Of a DNA stretch of 64,000 nt, positions 20,346-24,842 are shown in pieces. The stretch spans positions 124,001 to 188,000 of the forward strand of contig NZ_CP032489.1 of NCBI RefSeq assembly GCF_003600625.1, read 5' to 3'. Source of the stretch: Arachidicoccus soli. Its GTDB lineage: Bacteria > Bacteroidota > Bacteroidia > Chitinophagales > Chitinophagaceae. A program made the translations under genes and the position numbers. The notes under the pieces were generated by a model. That model had not been told where the DNA came from. It worked only from the letters and a program-made list of their open reading frames with translations, and did not search any database. The first letter of the stretch is position 1. Every line of letters starts with the position of its first letter.

Positions 20346-21380
20346 TTAAAGGTTCCAGATTTTCTCTGCCTTTCTGCCAATTATCCAAAATGATAATGCC
20401 AAAATAATAAAGAATACTGCTTTGGGCATGCTATCCCAGAAATATTCGAAATATCTGGTATAAATATTAATGAATAAAAAACTGACGCCAAAATTGCGTA
20501 ATACAGCGTTATCTTTTTTCCAAGCCCAATAAGTGACTATTACTGAAATGATGATAGATAAAGCTGCCCAAGGCCATAAGTAAATTTGCTTTACATTATT
20601 CCACTGTTCAATATTGCCATAATTACCATAAACAGAAACCGCCCACAAAGAAATGAAAAACAGTAAAATCCAATAATAAAAGCTGAGGTTATAAAACTTT
20701 TTAAGCCATGGAATCTTTTTTATGGTATCAATTAGAAATATAAAAATACTACTGAATAAGAGTAAGCGCAATGGAAGATTGAGTCCCCAAAAATAGGGAT
20801 GCCAATTGGTTGGAACACTGGTACAGGTAATAAAACAACTACTAATGCCTAGCAACACAAATAGCCAAACCAGAAAATTCTTTAGCCAATAGGTTATAGC
20901 GATATATAAAGAAGTTGCTATTAAAAACACACTTATATAATAAATATTACCATTTCCTATTAGTTTGGCAATATTGGCCGAGGTAAAAGCTGTAAATGCA
21001 ATACCCAAAAGTATCAGACCTTCATTGGTAAATATTTTATTGGGTCTTTGTTGCTTTCTTTTGTCGGCAAAATAAAAGAATATTGCGGCTAACGAGCCGC
21101 ATAAAATAGCTAAAATAGCATTTGGCGCATTATAAATTTTATCCACCATTCTTTCGAAAAAGCTAATTAGGTTTTTGTCTGCAAAAGTGGCAACTACTGC
21201 TACGATTCCGCAAACAATAGCTGCTACAAATGCGTACTGCGCAACAGCCATCCAATTAAATTTCCTGATGGTGAAACTTTTTTTGAGCTCGACAGACTTC
21301 TCTTCTGATAATAATTCTTTTTGCCTCCACTCATCAATAATTCCCTCCAAAAATTCTGCTTGCGATTGGTTTAGATCCAT
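20346..21380 (-). CDS. DUF2157-like multi-pass membrane protein
   Basis: A 344-residue protein with a ~45-residue cytoplasmic N-terminus containing a charged helix (SQAEFLEGIIDEWRQKELLS) and about ten hydrophobic helices. The N-terminal pattern followed by evenly spaced helices resembles the DUF2157 family, which has no known function. It lies 11 bp downstream of the Lrp/AsnC-type regulator on the same strand and may be co-transcribed with it. Confidence 0.6.
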   Translation of the reverse strand: MDLNQSQAEFLEGIIDEWRQKELLSEEKSVELKKSFTIRKFNWMAVAQYAFVAAIVCGIVAVVATFADKNLISFFERMVDKIYNAPNAILAILCGSLAAIFFYFADKRKQQRPNKIFTNEGLILLGIAFTAFTSANIAKLIGNGNIYYISVFLIATSLYIAITYWLKNFLVWLFVLLGISSCFITCTSVPTNWHPYFWGLNLPLRLLLFSSIFIFLIDTIKKIPWLKKFYNLSFYYWILLFFISLWAVSVYGNYGNIEQWNNVKQIYLWPWAALSIIISVIVTYWAWKKDNAVLRNFGVSFLFINIYTRYFEYFWDSMPKAVFFIILALSFWIIGRKAEKIWNL

Positions 21381-21391
21381 AATAATAAAAA

Positions 21392-21868
21392 TTAGACTTC
21401 TTCTTCCAATACTTGAACATTGCGGTTAAAACTTTCTTCTAACGAAATTAAAGTTTCAGTACGTTCAATGCCTTTGATGTTTTGTAATTTATCATGCAAA
21501 ACGTGTTTGAGTTGTTGTATGTTTTTACATACGATCTCAGCGAACATGCTATAAGTGCCGGTTGTATAATTGAGCCGAACTATCTGAGGTATTTTCGCTA
21601 ATTCTTTAGCCACATCTTCATACATTGAACTTTTCTGTAAATAAATGCCAACAAATGTAATCACATCAAAGCCCAGTGCTTTTATATCAACAGTTAATCT
21701 TGTTCCAGTCACGATGCCCGATTCTTGTAATTTTTTTATTCTTACATGAATGGTACCTCCTGAAACAAATAATTTCTTTCCTAAATCGGCATAGGATATT
21801 TCGGCATTCTCAGCCATTGATTGAATAATCTGATAATCCAATTTGTCTAAATTTAATTTCTGGCTCAT
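21392..21868 (-). CDS. Lrp/AsnC-family transcriptional regulator
   Basis: A 158-residue regulator. The N-terminal HTH (LDYQIIQSMAENAEISYADLG, then VSGGTIHVRIKKLQESGIV) is followed by an AsnC/RAM ligand-binding domain with the GTYSMFAEIVCKN segment. Such proteins sense amino acids and bind DNA as octamers. It diverges from the structured RNA at 22.0 kb, with about 110 bp between its start and the RNA promoter; whether it controls that RNA is unknown. Confidence 0.9.
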   Translation of the reverse strand: MSQKLNLDKLDYQIIQSMAENAEISYADLGKKLFVSGGTIHVRIKKLQESGIVTGTRLTVDIKALGFDVITFVGIYLQKSSMYEDVAKELAKIPQIVRLNYTTGTYSMFAEIVCKNIQQLKHVLHDKLQNIKGIERTETLISLEESFNRNVQVLEEEV

Positions 21869-21951
21869 TTTTTCATTTATTTAGAATACTATTCAAATAT
21901 AATTACAAAAAATTAAATAAATTCTAAATTATTTTATTTTTTGTTGAATAA

Positions 21952-21983
21952 TTTGAAATATTGGTTTTGGCATTTTATCTTTG
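21952..21983 (+). promoter_or_regulatory. Bacteroidota-type promoter for the tRNA-like RNA
   Basis: TTTG (21952-21955), 20 bp spacer, TATCTTTG (21976-21983): a full match to the TTTG / TAnnTTTG promoter of the major Bacteroidota sigma factor. Transcription should begin near 21990. A 6+1+6 palindrome, AAGAACAGTTCTT (22001-22013), sits between the predicted start and the RNA body and could be an operator. Confidence 0.7.
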
Positions 21984-22019
21984 CATTGTCTTTATAAGAA
22001 AAGAACAGTTCTTAAACAT

Positions 22020-22181
22020 TGTGGGGTGATGAAACTTTTGGCAGACATGCCCTCTCGTCTCGAGGGTGGAGATCACAGGATAAACGAAGTGTAGAGCCTC
22101 TCGCGAGAGAGACCGGGGTTGACCACCGGACTTTGTACTTTTGCTAACTGCTCCGTGTAGGTTCGACTCCTACCCCTACAG
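22020..22181 (+). ncRNA. tRNA-like structured RNA with giant variable arm
   Basis: The stretch folds by hand into a complete class II tRNA cloverleaf. The acceptor stem is 7 bp with one G-U (22020-22026 with 22174-22180). Two linker bases precede a D-arm (ATG/CAT stem, 22029-22031 with 22046-22048; loop with TTGGCAGA as in tRNA-Leu). One base leads to a 5-bp anticodon stem (22050-22054 with 22062-22066). The T-arm is GTAGG-TTCGACT-CCTAC (22157-22173), joined directly to the acceptor; CCA is not encoded. Between anticodon and T-arms lies a ~90-base variable arm closed by TGGAG/CTCCG, with further stems (22088-22094 with 22144-22149, CTCT-AGAG, CCGG-CCGG). The anticodon loop TCGTCTC has C, not U, at position 33, so normal decoding is doubtful. 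A consensus promoter and a strong terminator frame it. It matches no RNA class I know. Confidence 0.6.
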
Positions 22182-22188
22182 CAGCTTG

Positions 22189-22229
22189 AACGCTCAGATT
22201 ATTGATTGTCAATAGTTTGGGCGTTTTTT
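22189..22229 (+). terminator. Strong terminator after the tRNA-like RNA
   Basis: A 17-bp stem with three G-U pairs (22189-22205 with 22209-22225), 3-base loop, and a T6 tail. It begins 8 bases after the tRNA-like 3' end, marking the unit as a separately transcribed small RNA. Confidence 0.9.
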
Positions 22230-22440
22230 ATTTAAATGTGCTGCAAATTGTAGTGCAAATTTTATCATTTTCGCTGCAAAACTTCCTTCCGAAAAGAAAA
22301 TAAATACAACCTCTCTTATTTTTGAAAATAGTATATCTTTATTGTCATTGATTGCACTCGAAGTATAAAACACCAAAAACTTATGCAAAATGAGAAAAAT
22401 AATATTTCCCTTTTTATTTTTATACAAATATGAATAAATA

Positions 22441-23566
22441 TTTAGTCCAATAAATGTTTTATTGGATTTTTTGTTGTAATTTTGGACTAAACAATAAATC
22501 ATATTATGTCGTTACCCAAACAAATACATATAGTAGAAAGTATCGGAGAATTGCGCAAACTACAAAAGGCTTCGATTCCTATGATTGCCAATAGGATAAA
22601 AGCCCTAATAGAGTTTAAGAAGCATGAGCAAAAAGGCATTTCCAAAAGAGCCGTAGCCGATAACATTGGCGTAAATCAAAACAGTGTGCAAACTTGGCGC
22701 ACGATGTATATAAATGGAGGGATAGAAGCGGTTTTAAACTATCAAAAGCAGGCCGGCCGTCCATCAGGCATTACCAAAGCAGAGCATAAACAAATAGAAG
22801 CAAAATTAAAAGATCCTAAAAATGGCTTACGGGGCTATGTAGAGTTATTGGACTGGATGGAATCGGAATTTAATAAAACCTTTGCGTACAATACTGTTTT
22901 AAAATATTGCTATCGCCATTTTAATTCCAAGATAAAGGTAGCCCGCAAAAGTCATATCAAAAAAGACGAAGAGGCTGTGTCCACTTTTAAAAAAACTTTA
23001 GTCAAACCTGTCAAAAAATAGCTTTAAAATCACCTGTAAAGTATAGTGAAATAAACTTGTATTTTCAAGATGAGAGCCGTTTTGGCTTATTTACTAAAAA
23101 TGGAAAAGCCCTAACCGCAAGAGGTGTCAAGCCTATCTGTCCCTTTCAACAAGTATTCCAGTCCACCTATTTATTCGGAGCGTTTTCGCCCATTACCGGC
23201 GATAAATTGCTGCTGGAACTGCCCCATTGCAACGCCGATTGGTTTCAAATATTCTTAGATCATTTATCAAATCTCCATCCAAATGAATATAAAATTGTAG
23301 TATTGGATAATGGAGCTTTTCATCATGCCAAAAAATTAAAAATTCCCGAGAATATTTCACTGCTTTTTTTACCACCTTATAGTCCGGAACTAAACCCTGC
23401 AGAAAAAATGTGGGCAAGGTATAAAAGGACTTTTACCAATAGGCTACACAAATCATTGGAGCAACTAAGTATATTCATAGAAGAAGTGGTAAAAAATACT
23501 TCAAAAGATACCGTCATTTCTACTTGTGCATATAGCTATATTTTTGAAGGATTATTTTGGACTAAT
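22441..23566 (+). mobile_element. IS630-family insertion sequence
   Basis: About 1.13 kb. The left end shows TTTAGTCCAA and the right end TTGGACTAAT, inverted copies with one mismatch at the tip; each is flanked by TA (22439-22440 and 23567-23568), the target duplicated by this family. A second TTGGACTAA lies inside the left end (22482-22490), and CCAATAAA/TTTATTGG form a hairpin there. The transposase is split into two frames but its catalytic triad is intact. Confidence 0.8.
22506..23021 (+). CDS. IS630 transposase, N-terminal frame
   Basis: A 171-residue frame carrying the DNA-binding part: helix-turn-helix segments around GISKRAVADNIGVNQNSVQTWR and a second region (GLRGYVELLDWME, NTVLKYCYRH). 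It ends in TAG at 23019 shortly after two A-runs, A7 (22989-22995) and A6 (23013-23018). Slipping back one base at either run joins it to the catalytic frame without meeting a stop. This may be programmed -1 frameshifting or a fixed one-base deletion. Confidence 0.82.
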   Translation: MSLPKQIHIVESIGELRKLQKASIPMIANRIKALIEFKKHEQKGISKRAVADNIGVNQNSVQTWRTMYINGGIEAVLNYQKQAGRPSGITKAEHKQIEAKLKDPKNGLRGYVELLDWMESEFNKTFAYNTVLKYCYRHFNSKIKVARKSHIKKDEEAVSTFKKTLVKPVKK

Positions 23567-23569
23567 TAA
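23057..23569 (+). CDS. IS630 transposase, catalytic DDE frame
   Basis: A 170-residue frame in the -1 phase to the frame above; the phase is open back past the A7 run, so the real product is a fusion. It has the full DDE triad: first Asp in YFQDESRFG, second in VVLDNGAFHH, and Glu in YSPELNPAEKMW. It has no start or ribosome site of its own that I can see. The stop codon lies in the right terminal repeat and flank, common in this family. Confidence 0.82.
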   Translation: MYFQDESRFGLFTKNGKALTARGVKPICPFQQVFQSTYLFGAFSPITGDKLLLELPHCNADWFQIFLDHLSNLHPNEYKIVVLDNGAFHHAKKLKIPENISLLFLPPYSPELNPAEKMWARYKRTFTNRLHKSLEQLSIFIEEVVKNTSKDTVISTCAYSYIFEGLFWTN

Positions 23570-24165: not shown

Positions 24166-24519
24166 TTAAACCTGCATAAATACATCTGCGGGTAAATTAA
24201 AAAACTGTTTCAACTTCTTTGCCATACTTAGGGTTATTTCCCTGCGCCCCGACAAAATGGAAGAAACATAGCCCTTGCTGCCGATAATAGGTTCCAGATC
24301 TTTATTCTTTAATCCTTGTTCCTGCATTTTATCTTTGATAAGTGCTAATACATCCACTTGTGGAAGTGGGTAATGTTTATCCTCATAATCTTTTATCAAT
24401 AAGAGTAACACGCCAAGTTCATCATCTTCCGGTGTGTTTGGTTCTGCATGAAAAATTTCCATTGCGCGTTTTACTGCCTTTTTATAATACGCTTCGTTAT
24501 ATATTACTTTCCAGTTCAT
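24166..24519 (-). CDS. higA: HigA-family antitoxin
   Basis: A 117-residue protein. The N-terminal half is the acidic region typical of HigA antitoxins (AEPNTPEDDELGVLLLLIKDYED), and the C-terminal half is an XRE-type helix-turn-helix (GLKNKDLEPIIGSKGYVSSILSGRREITLSMAKKL, read as two helices around a turn). It binds and neutralises the toxin encoded just upstream and should repress the shared promoter. It starts 11 bp after the toxin stop, in the toxin-first order of HigBA loci. Confidence 0.88.
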   Translation of the reverse strand: MNWKVIYNEAYYKKAVKRAMEIFHAEPNTPEDDELGVLLLLIKDYEDKHYPLPQVDVLALIKDKMQEQGLKNKDLEPIIGSKGYVSSILSGRREITLSMAKKLKQFFNLPADVFMQV

Positions 24520-24530
24520 CGTTTTATCTT

Positions 24531-24842
24531 TTATAAGTTTAGATTATATTGTATCGTTGCTACATTAATTTTATCGTATTCCTTATGCGTTCCAAACCAA
24601 ATTGTGTAACACGCTCTACGCCTAAAGTTTATTGACACAACCAACCTGTATTCATTACCTTTTATATTAAATACTACCCTTTGATTATTTACTAAACTTG
24701 CATTTCCGTACAACTCTTTCAATTCATTAAAGTTGGCAAATTCTTGTTTCAGCATTTTATGATACCAATCTAATAATTGATTTTTTGCTTTTGGGTATTT
24801 TTCTACATAATAGCTAATAGTCTTTCGGTTGATTATGTTCAT
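24531..24842 (-). CDS. higB: HigB-family toxin
   Basis: A 103-residue RelE-fold mRNA interferase of the HigB type. Diagnostic segments are KNQLLDWYHKML, FNIKGNEYRLVVSINF and WFGTHKEYDKIN; the basic residues around the last strand are those expected for mRNA cutting on the ribosome. First gene of the leftward higBA pair. It looks intact in length and motifs, unlike the second copy 300 bp away. Confidence 0.88.
   Translation of the reverse strand: MNIINRKTISYYVEKYPKAKNQLLDWYHKMLKQEFANFNELKELYGNASLVNNQRVVFNIKGNEYRLVVSINFRRRACYTIWFGTHKEYDKINVATIQYNLNL

Follow-up and report, generated by a model that had tools for sequence, protein, structure and literature searches.

A widely conserved tRNA-shaped RNA of Bacteroidota that looks built for aspartate loading and not for codon reading

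The gene at 22020-22181 (+ strand) of the window, the whole stretch of DNA that was analysed (64,000 nt from Arachidicoccus soli), encodes a tRNA-shaped RNA that is widely conserved and apparently undescribed so far. Judged by its conserved bases, the RNA unites the tRNA-Asp code for charging and the tRNA-Asn code for amidation in a molecule whose loop is unlike those of decoding tRNAs, and it looks as if it was built for aspartate loading, not for codon reading. Its probable role is that of a dedicated carrier, outside decoding, for asparagine synthesis by AspRS and then GatCAB under AsnC control. The observations from which this reading starts are the RNA gene itself, its covarying fold, its conserved bases, an AsnC-type neighbour and the co-occurrence with GatB.

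The RNA gene and its parts

By sequence inspection, the class II tRNA-like RNA gene has its own promoter and terminator, and it was found by blastn as a single copy in the complete 4.10-Mb genome. All of its parts lie on the + strand. A putative Bacteroidota-type promoter (21952-21983) has a -33 element TTTG (21952-21955) and, after 20 nt, a -7 element TATCTTTG (21976-21983). The -7 motif TAnnTTTG was present in 48/61 intergenic regions between the AsnC-type gene and the RNA gene, and TTG stood 17-24 nt 5' of it in 34/61. A TTGAATAATTTGAA element, which overlaps the promoter, may be the AsnC operator. In the leader (21988-22019) and in homologues, GTTCTT was often seen by eye shortly 5' of the acceptor stem.

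With its ends placed by the tRNA fold, the mature RNA would run from U1 to G73 (22020-22181), and it is followed by a genome-encoded C74 (22182), as are the listed tRNA genes of the genome. The 5' acceptor strand UGUGGGG (22020-22026) pairs over 7 bp with 22174-22180 and is joined by a 2-nt linker to the D arm (22029-22048), which by hand numbering has a 3-bp stem AUG/CAU, A14 A15, G18G19 and C20 A20a G20b, with no U20a. The anticodon arm CCCUC-UCGUCUC-GAGGG (22050-22066; 5-bp stem, 7-nt loop) holds G34 U35 C36 at 22057-22059 and C38 at 22061, and its stem covaries in the wider set of homologues. The variable-arm domain (22068-22154, 87 nt) is branched: a closing stem GGAG/CUCC (22068-22071/22151-22154), a CAG/CUG stem (22076-22078/22148-22150), an internal loop GAUAAA/CUAA (22079-22084/22144-22147) and a 10-bp stem (22087-22096/22131-22140) lead to a variable hairpin and a hairpin with conserved GGUUGACCAC. 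The T arm GUAGG-UUCGACU-CCUAC (22157-22173, 5 bp) and the discriminator G73 (22181) complete the RNA. An intrinsic terminator, with a stem and U run, is located at 22189-22229, and the 243-nt stretch including it had a folding z of -2.99.

Directly 3' of the RNA gene, at 22506-23569, a presumably IS630-like transposase is spread over two frames, one with the HTH and one with the DDE_3 part by Pfam. A HigB-type toxin and HTH antitoxin pair was seen at 24166-24842.

Comparative support for the fold

The cloverleaf was not the minimum free-energy fold of the single RNA sequence (z -1.25), and folding energy could not by itself have established it; the proof comes from comparison across homologues. 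In 20 diverse members, the window RNA included, 539/540 cells in 27 pairs were standard pairs and 12 pairs were doubly changed, values reached by 0/500 shuffles, and pairing fell to 51-61% when the partner strand was slid. With 65 distinct rows, double changes were found in 24/27 pairs and in 260 cells, where shuffles averaged 62 (0/500 as high); this set represents 40 class- and order-level loci, two of its rows are ordinary tRNAs, and its alignment was fitted to the covariance model and so leans to it. Together with the cloverleaf, the L-shape contacts of tRNA (U8-A14, 15-48, G18G19, T loop) were present, and the pairs covaried.

In the variable arm, five of the seven pairs of the main inner stem were doubly changed among 30 long forms. 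The inner helices were supported, with two exceptions: the outer pairs of the last hairpin, and the apical hairpin, in which 38.7% of cells paired and whose changing sequence maintains no fixed pairing. Short forms (e.g. L054 7691-7802, 112 nt) retain the closing stem, the 3-bp stem and the conserved GAUAAA/CUAA internal loop. Two other pairings were rejected. A GGCA/UGCC hairpin in the D-anticodon region, preferred by RNAalifold, had no double changes, whereas the anticodon stem has them in the wider set; a pairing of the GUC loop with the conserved variable-arm UUGACC was discarded by inspection, as it has only 3 bp and is missing in short forms.

The first-pass annotation had placed here a stand-alone tRNA-like RNA with a giant variable arm, and its sequence, promoter and terminator were confirmed; the proposed class II cloverleaf was borne out by covariation in both the 20 and the 65 rows. 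Its branched drawing of the variable arm is supported for the inner helices, and not for the apical hairpin and the outer pairs of the last hairpin. Homologues with covarying stems, for which it had called, were found by blastn and the covariance model and held against shuffles. A match to a known RNA family, which it had named as a refuting outcome, did not turn up in the searches with Rfam, RF00005 and ARAGORN. ARAGORN called no tRNA in the 64-kb window, and Rfam at gathering scores gave no match to the RNA; at E up to 10, only three unrelated weak matches were obtained in 21900-22300, with no match to a tmRNA model. An RF00005 scan of the genome reported 42 places, and the RNA at 22020-22181 was not among them. 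On homologue loci, ARAGORN called one copy (77 nt, 71 bits) in one set of 40 and zero in another 40. No paper on such an RNA was found in the open-licence PMC literature.

Distribution of the family

When 98 relatives were searched by blastn, copies were found in 5/5 congeners (84-93% identity) and in 39/54 other genomes of the same family (E 1e-13 or better). The homologues are mostly 108-212 nt long, and their variable arms measure about 35 to 140 nt. From 20 members we built a covariance model and applied it to the order and class samples; genomes with a best cmsearch E at or below 1e-18 were scored as RNA-positive (RNA+), which gave 107/198 genomes in the order sample and 49/295 in the class sample; raw match tallies that include tRNA-Leu were left out of these counts. 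The scores split into the family, at 84 bits or more, and ordinary tRNA-Leu, at 62 bits or less: all 20 places checked in the lower group were tRNA-Leu (56-62 bits; anticodon GAG in 18, CAG in 2). Two loci between the groups (L152 and L153, 71 and 70 bits) are outside the RNA+ counts and inside the base counts below. That the closest ordinary relatives by the model are tRNA-Leu, mostly with GAG (L357-L376), hints that the RNA arose from tRNA-Leu.

A pattern scan of named genomes returned at least 120 matches, and 80/80 of those listed were Bacteroidota by title; Chitinophaga, Terrimonas, Niabella, Segetibacter, Dyadobacter, Cyclobacterium, Algoriphagus, Fulvivirga, Emticicia, Neolewinella and others were among the genera of the matches listed, and Chitinophaga pinensis and Dyadobacter fermentans among the species. 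Some loci contain tandem arrays of 3 to 5 copies (L128:4961-5859, L129:4436-5314, L131:4333-5227, L126:4693-5062). Long and short variable-arm types alternate in the L128 array.

Conserved bases

For base counts, 145 members were merged to 132 distinct rows, of which 128 had a parsed anticodon loop and 4 were unparsable; the rows left out were those of two ordinary tRNAs, a viral copy truncated at the end of its contig and two that had been trimmed, and one extra end base was trimmed from two rows. U1-A72, G2-C71, G73, C74, A14 and A15 were each found in 132/132 rows and U8 in 131/132, an invariance that is partly ascertained, as rows were chosen by family similarity and the viral rows mostly via a pattern fixing GTCTC and D-arm letters. 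Acceptor pairs 4-7 vary across the 132 members, and so does position 10 (A10 in 103/132, G10 in 17/132). In the anticodon loop, G34 was present in 125/128, U35 and C36 in 128/128 and C38 in 126/128; the departures include C34 in the G425 copy and A38 in the G517 copy.

The GUC triplet in the loop is the aspartate anticodon. Five strong aspartate determinants, G73, G34, U35, C36 and C38, are given in a review of tRNA identity (PMC9976931), and the family has this set; it has neither G1-C72 nor a fixed G10, which counts against the RNA as an asparagine carrier. According to the same review, U1-A72 confers amidation of Asp-tRNA, and G1-C72 and U20a prevent it (PMC9976931). With U1-A72 in 132/132 rows and position 20a being A in 129/132 and U in 1/132, the family shows the signature of a GatCAB substrate (U1-A72, no U20a). 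In the same genome, an ordinary tRNA-Asp has the loop CUGUCAC, and the tRNA-Asn has U1-A72 and, by our hand numbering, U20a.

Canonical elongator tRNAs have U33 and a purine at position 37. This combination is found neither in the family, where position 33 is U in 93, C in 24 and G in 11 of 128 rows (non-U33 in 35/128) and position 37 is U in 117, G in 6 and C in 5, nor in the window RNA, which has C33 and U37. The absence of U33 noted in the first-pass annotation is correct for the window RNA and lineage-specific only, while the lack of a purine at 37 that it had also remarked is general in the family (pyrimidine in 122/128, the other 6 being G). With position 33 free to vary and a pyrimidine at 37 in nearly all members, decoding is unlikely.

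The AsnC-type neighbour

An AsnC-type regulator of 158 aa (21392-21868, - strand; Pfam AsnC_trans_reg) is divergent from the RNA gene, with 151 bp between them. AsnC is its closest match, ahead of Lrp and the other relatives: its best PDB match was E. coli AsnC (2CG4, 119.6 bits; Lrp 2GQQ, 34.9), and its best NCBIfam model was AsnC at 161 bits, which is under the equivalog cut-off of 227 (Lrp, 47). One Lrp/AsnC-cluster gene was found upstream and divergent in 61/80 loci at a distance of 88 to 233 nt (median 154), on the same side and strand every time. It was not found in the other 19/80 loci, which counts against the proposed carrier. No conserved gene was seen downstream of the RNA across the 80 loci. 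In E. coli, AsnC is an activator of the divergent gene asnA and a repressor of its own gene, and asparagine dampens its activity (PMC8707732, PMC4482635).

Beside the AsnC-type gene, at 20346-21380, lies a 344-aa membrane-protein-like frame, which is similarly placed in other loci of the genus and had no Pfam match at E 0.001.

Co-occurrence with GatB

In profile searches, the genome itself had GatB (545 bits), AsnRS (605 bits) and GlnRS (743 bits) and no AsnA match; the best AsnB match had an E of only 6e-12 and was taken as absent (E above 1e-30). As AsnRS and GlnRS are both present, there is no canonical tRNA that GatCAB must serve. Throughout, GatCAB was scored by GatB alone and AspRS was assumed to be universal, and the co-occurrence lists were compiled by hand, genomes missing from the match lists being counted as without the gene. 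GatB-positive (GatB+) genomes include fragments with E under 1e-70 (153 genomes, 150 over cut-off), and GlnRS-positive (GlnRS+) genomes are those with E under 1e-60 (123 genomes, 122 over cut-off).

In the order sample (n=198), 102 genomes had both the RNA and GatB, 5 the RNA only, 51 GatB only and 40 neither (p 2e-11). Among the GlnRS+ genomes at least 90% complete (n=104), the counts were 74 with both, 0 with the RNA only, 4 with GatB only and 26 with neither (p 1e-20), that is, GatB in 74/74 genomes with the RNA and 4/30 without; by genus state, the same comparison gave 50/0/4/18 (p 2e-13). These p-values are inflated by shared ancestry. The 75 GlnRS-negative genomes, which need GatCAB for Gln, had no RNA-GatB link (25/2/41/7, p 0.47): the link is confined to GlnRS-positive genomes. 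In the class sample, GatB was over the cut-off in 49/49 RNA+ genomes and in 216/295 overall. In genus g105, one genome had the RNA and GatB and a congener had neither; AsnA was present in both.

The four near-complete GlnRS+ genomes with GatB and without the RNA indicate that GatCAB can persist without it. Five RNA+ genomes had no strong GatB match; four are under 90% complete, and the fifth, G167, which is also without GlnRS, probably has an assembly gap. Presence of the RNA was not associated with a lack of AsnA/AsnB (21/107 RNA+ against 12/91 RNA-negative genomes, p 0.25), which gives the proposed carrier no support; the test is weak, as the AsnB model probably also catches paralogues.

Phage copies

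The RNA was found on 31 IMG/VR contigs (87.6 bits or more). In 10/31, other tRNAs were on the same stretch, and 6 of these had a tmRNA as well (ARAGORN): L322, L326, L331, L338, L341 and L343 combine tRNAs and the RNA with a tmRNA that encodes a tag ending in VGADYAVAA. In an unannotated 636-kb record of an uncultured phage, matched by a third viral copy, the RNA was among nine tRNA calls; two other viral copies had no match in phage records, the window's RNA had no relevant match there, and one member tried against plasmid records had no match. A second viral pattern returned 8 contigs, with the RNA in none. The phage copies keep U1-A72, G73, the loop and the variable-arm features, the loop being part of the search pattern. 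No AsnC-cluster gene was found in the examined stretches of the 31 viral contigs, which counts against an asparagine carrier. Phages seem to treat the RNA as part of the stable RNA set of the host, or as a metabolic gene.

Some of the same viral contigs carry another tRNA-like RNA, distinct from the first (L323:9979-10112 (-), L323:4587-4706 (-), L344:3170-3299 (+), L346:5951-6100 (+)). It is 120-150 nt long, has an acceptor AGTCAGG/CCTGACT, A73 and a Leu-like D arm and T arm, lacks a clear anticodon arm, and scores only 34-46 bits with the family model.

Discussion

From these observations we infer transcription, AsnC control and every biochemical step of the following proposal. AsnC would control transcription of the RNA from its own promoter, and the transcript would be processed at its ends and receive CCA as a tRNA does. 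AspRS would aspartylate it, as the presence of G73, G34-U35-C36 and C38 should make it chargeable, and GatCAB would convert Asp-RNA to Asn-RNA because U1-A72 is present and U20a absent, ordinary tRNA-Asp being spared by its G1-C72. Two features, the variable-arm domain and the odd loop with its pyrimidine 37 and frequent lack of U33, would exclude the RNA from the ribosome and so prevent insertion of Asn at Asp codons; in addition, the domain may keep an AspRS-GatCAB complex together. Asparagine would finally be released and used by AsnRS, which is the weakest step of the proposal. We lean, if only slightly, to the broader view that many lineages of one bacterial class make asparagine on a never-decoding RNA cofactor, that an asnC-RNA pair replaces asnC-asnA and that phages carry an RNA-encoded metabolic gene.

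The main rival is the Bdellovibrio route, in which a non-discriminating AspRS and GatCAB make asparagine on the ordinary tRNA-Asn, with the RNA involved in asparagine metabolism in some other way, e.g. as a riboregulator or decoy. Bdellovibrio and Legionella have AsnRS, GlnRS, GatCAB and one AspRS, which charges tRNA-Asn, and no Asn synthetase, and the clades listed as having such a gene set include Bacteroidetes (PMC4206432). The tRNA-Asn of the genome has U1-A72 as this route would have it; however, it also has, by hand numbering, the U20a reported as an amidation antideterminant (PMC9976931), and the AspRS and GatCAB determinants of the RNA and its tight tracking with GatB would be left unexplained. 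We consider this route unlikely. Alternatively, the amino acid of an Asp- or Asn-loaded RNA could be passed on outside the ribosome, to a lipid, the cell wall or a peptide. tRNAs are known as donors in such reactions, and a loop unfit for decoding together with charging determinants would suit one, yet no conserved transferase gene adjoins the RNA and the downstream gene is not conserved, which makes this an improbable explanation.

As for translation, the GUC anticodon and the phage stretches on which the RNA accompanies tRNAs and a tmRNA would fit a true tRNA-Asp isodecoder, phage-borne like other tRNAs, that reads GAC/GAU despite its odd loop and variable arm. We hold this to be very improbable, given the pyrimidine at 37 in 122/128 members, the non-U33 bases in 35/128 and the ordinary tRNA-Asp already in the genome; the links to GatB and AsnC would have no explanation, and such an isodecoder, if amidated, would misread Asp codons. 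The least credible of the alternatives, to which we give hardly any weight, is a tmRNA-like rescue RNA or a decoy of translation factors, as suggested by a tRNA-like shape with an extra domain: neither Rfam nor ARAGORN found a match to a tmRNA model, a separate tmRNA is beside the RNA in 6/31 viral contigs, and no GatB link would be predicted. Among the four guesses of the first-pass annotation, a charged but non-decoding tRNA is accordingly favoured, and the tmRNA-like rescue RNA is disfavoured. That interpretation is supported in part, the aspartate identity set, the GUC anticodon, the U1-A72 signature, the AsnC neighbour and the GatCAB link having been absent from it.

If the RNA is a dedicated asparagine carrier, it would be purely a metabolic cofactor in living bacteria, kept apart from decoding to avoid misreading and with a clear regulator, an RNA counterpart of an amino-acid carrier protein, and phages would be spreading an RNA cofactor. 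It would also be a missing RNA family for annotation and provide a natural class II scaffold with room for large insertions.

Comparison with known systems

The RNA would work like a known pathway, yet it matched no known RNA family tested. In PMC4206432, tRNA-dependent asparagine synthesis on tRNA-Asn is described for Deinococcus, Thermus, Bdellovibrio and Legionella, and this route is the closest precedent, with the same two proposed enzymes and chemistry, the U1-A72 signature and the gene complement (AsnRS, GlnRS, GatCAB, no Asn synthetase). That 2014 survey lists 18 genera, with Bacteroidetes among the clades, that have AsnRS, GlnRS and GatCAB and no asparagine synthetase, which was taken as consistent with the tRNA-Asn route. 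For Bacteroidota, the RNA is a concrete alternative to tRNA-Asn as carrier, found where GatCAB would otherwise seem unneeded. In contrast to that route, the carrier here would be a separate, apparently non-decoding RNA that has an aspartate anticodon and that an ordinary, discriminating AspRS could charge.

The RNA shares G73, the GUC anticodon and C38 with tRNA-Asp, but it has U1-A72 instead of G1-C72, a class II body, a Leu-like D arm, a pyrimidine at 37 and often no U33. It resembles the class II tRNA-Leu of Bacteroidota in its D arm ATG(A)AA..TTGGCAGACAT and long variable arm, and differs from it in having G73 instead of A73, another anticodon and the variable-arm domain. As in the asnC-asnA pair of E. 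coli, an AsnC-type gene is divergent from a proposed asparagine-making function; here the target would be an RNA gene, not the synthetase gene asnA. Enlarged arms and odd anticodons are also found in two other kinds of natural tRNA, allo-tRNAs and selC tRNA-Cys, and GUC is among the anticodons of the 8/4 allo-tRNAs (PMC7609411); the acceptor branches of these tRNAs are 8/4 or 9/3, whereas the RNA has the normal 7/5 branch.
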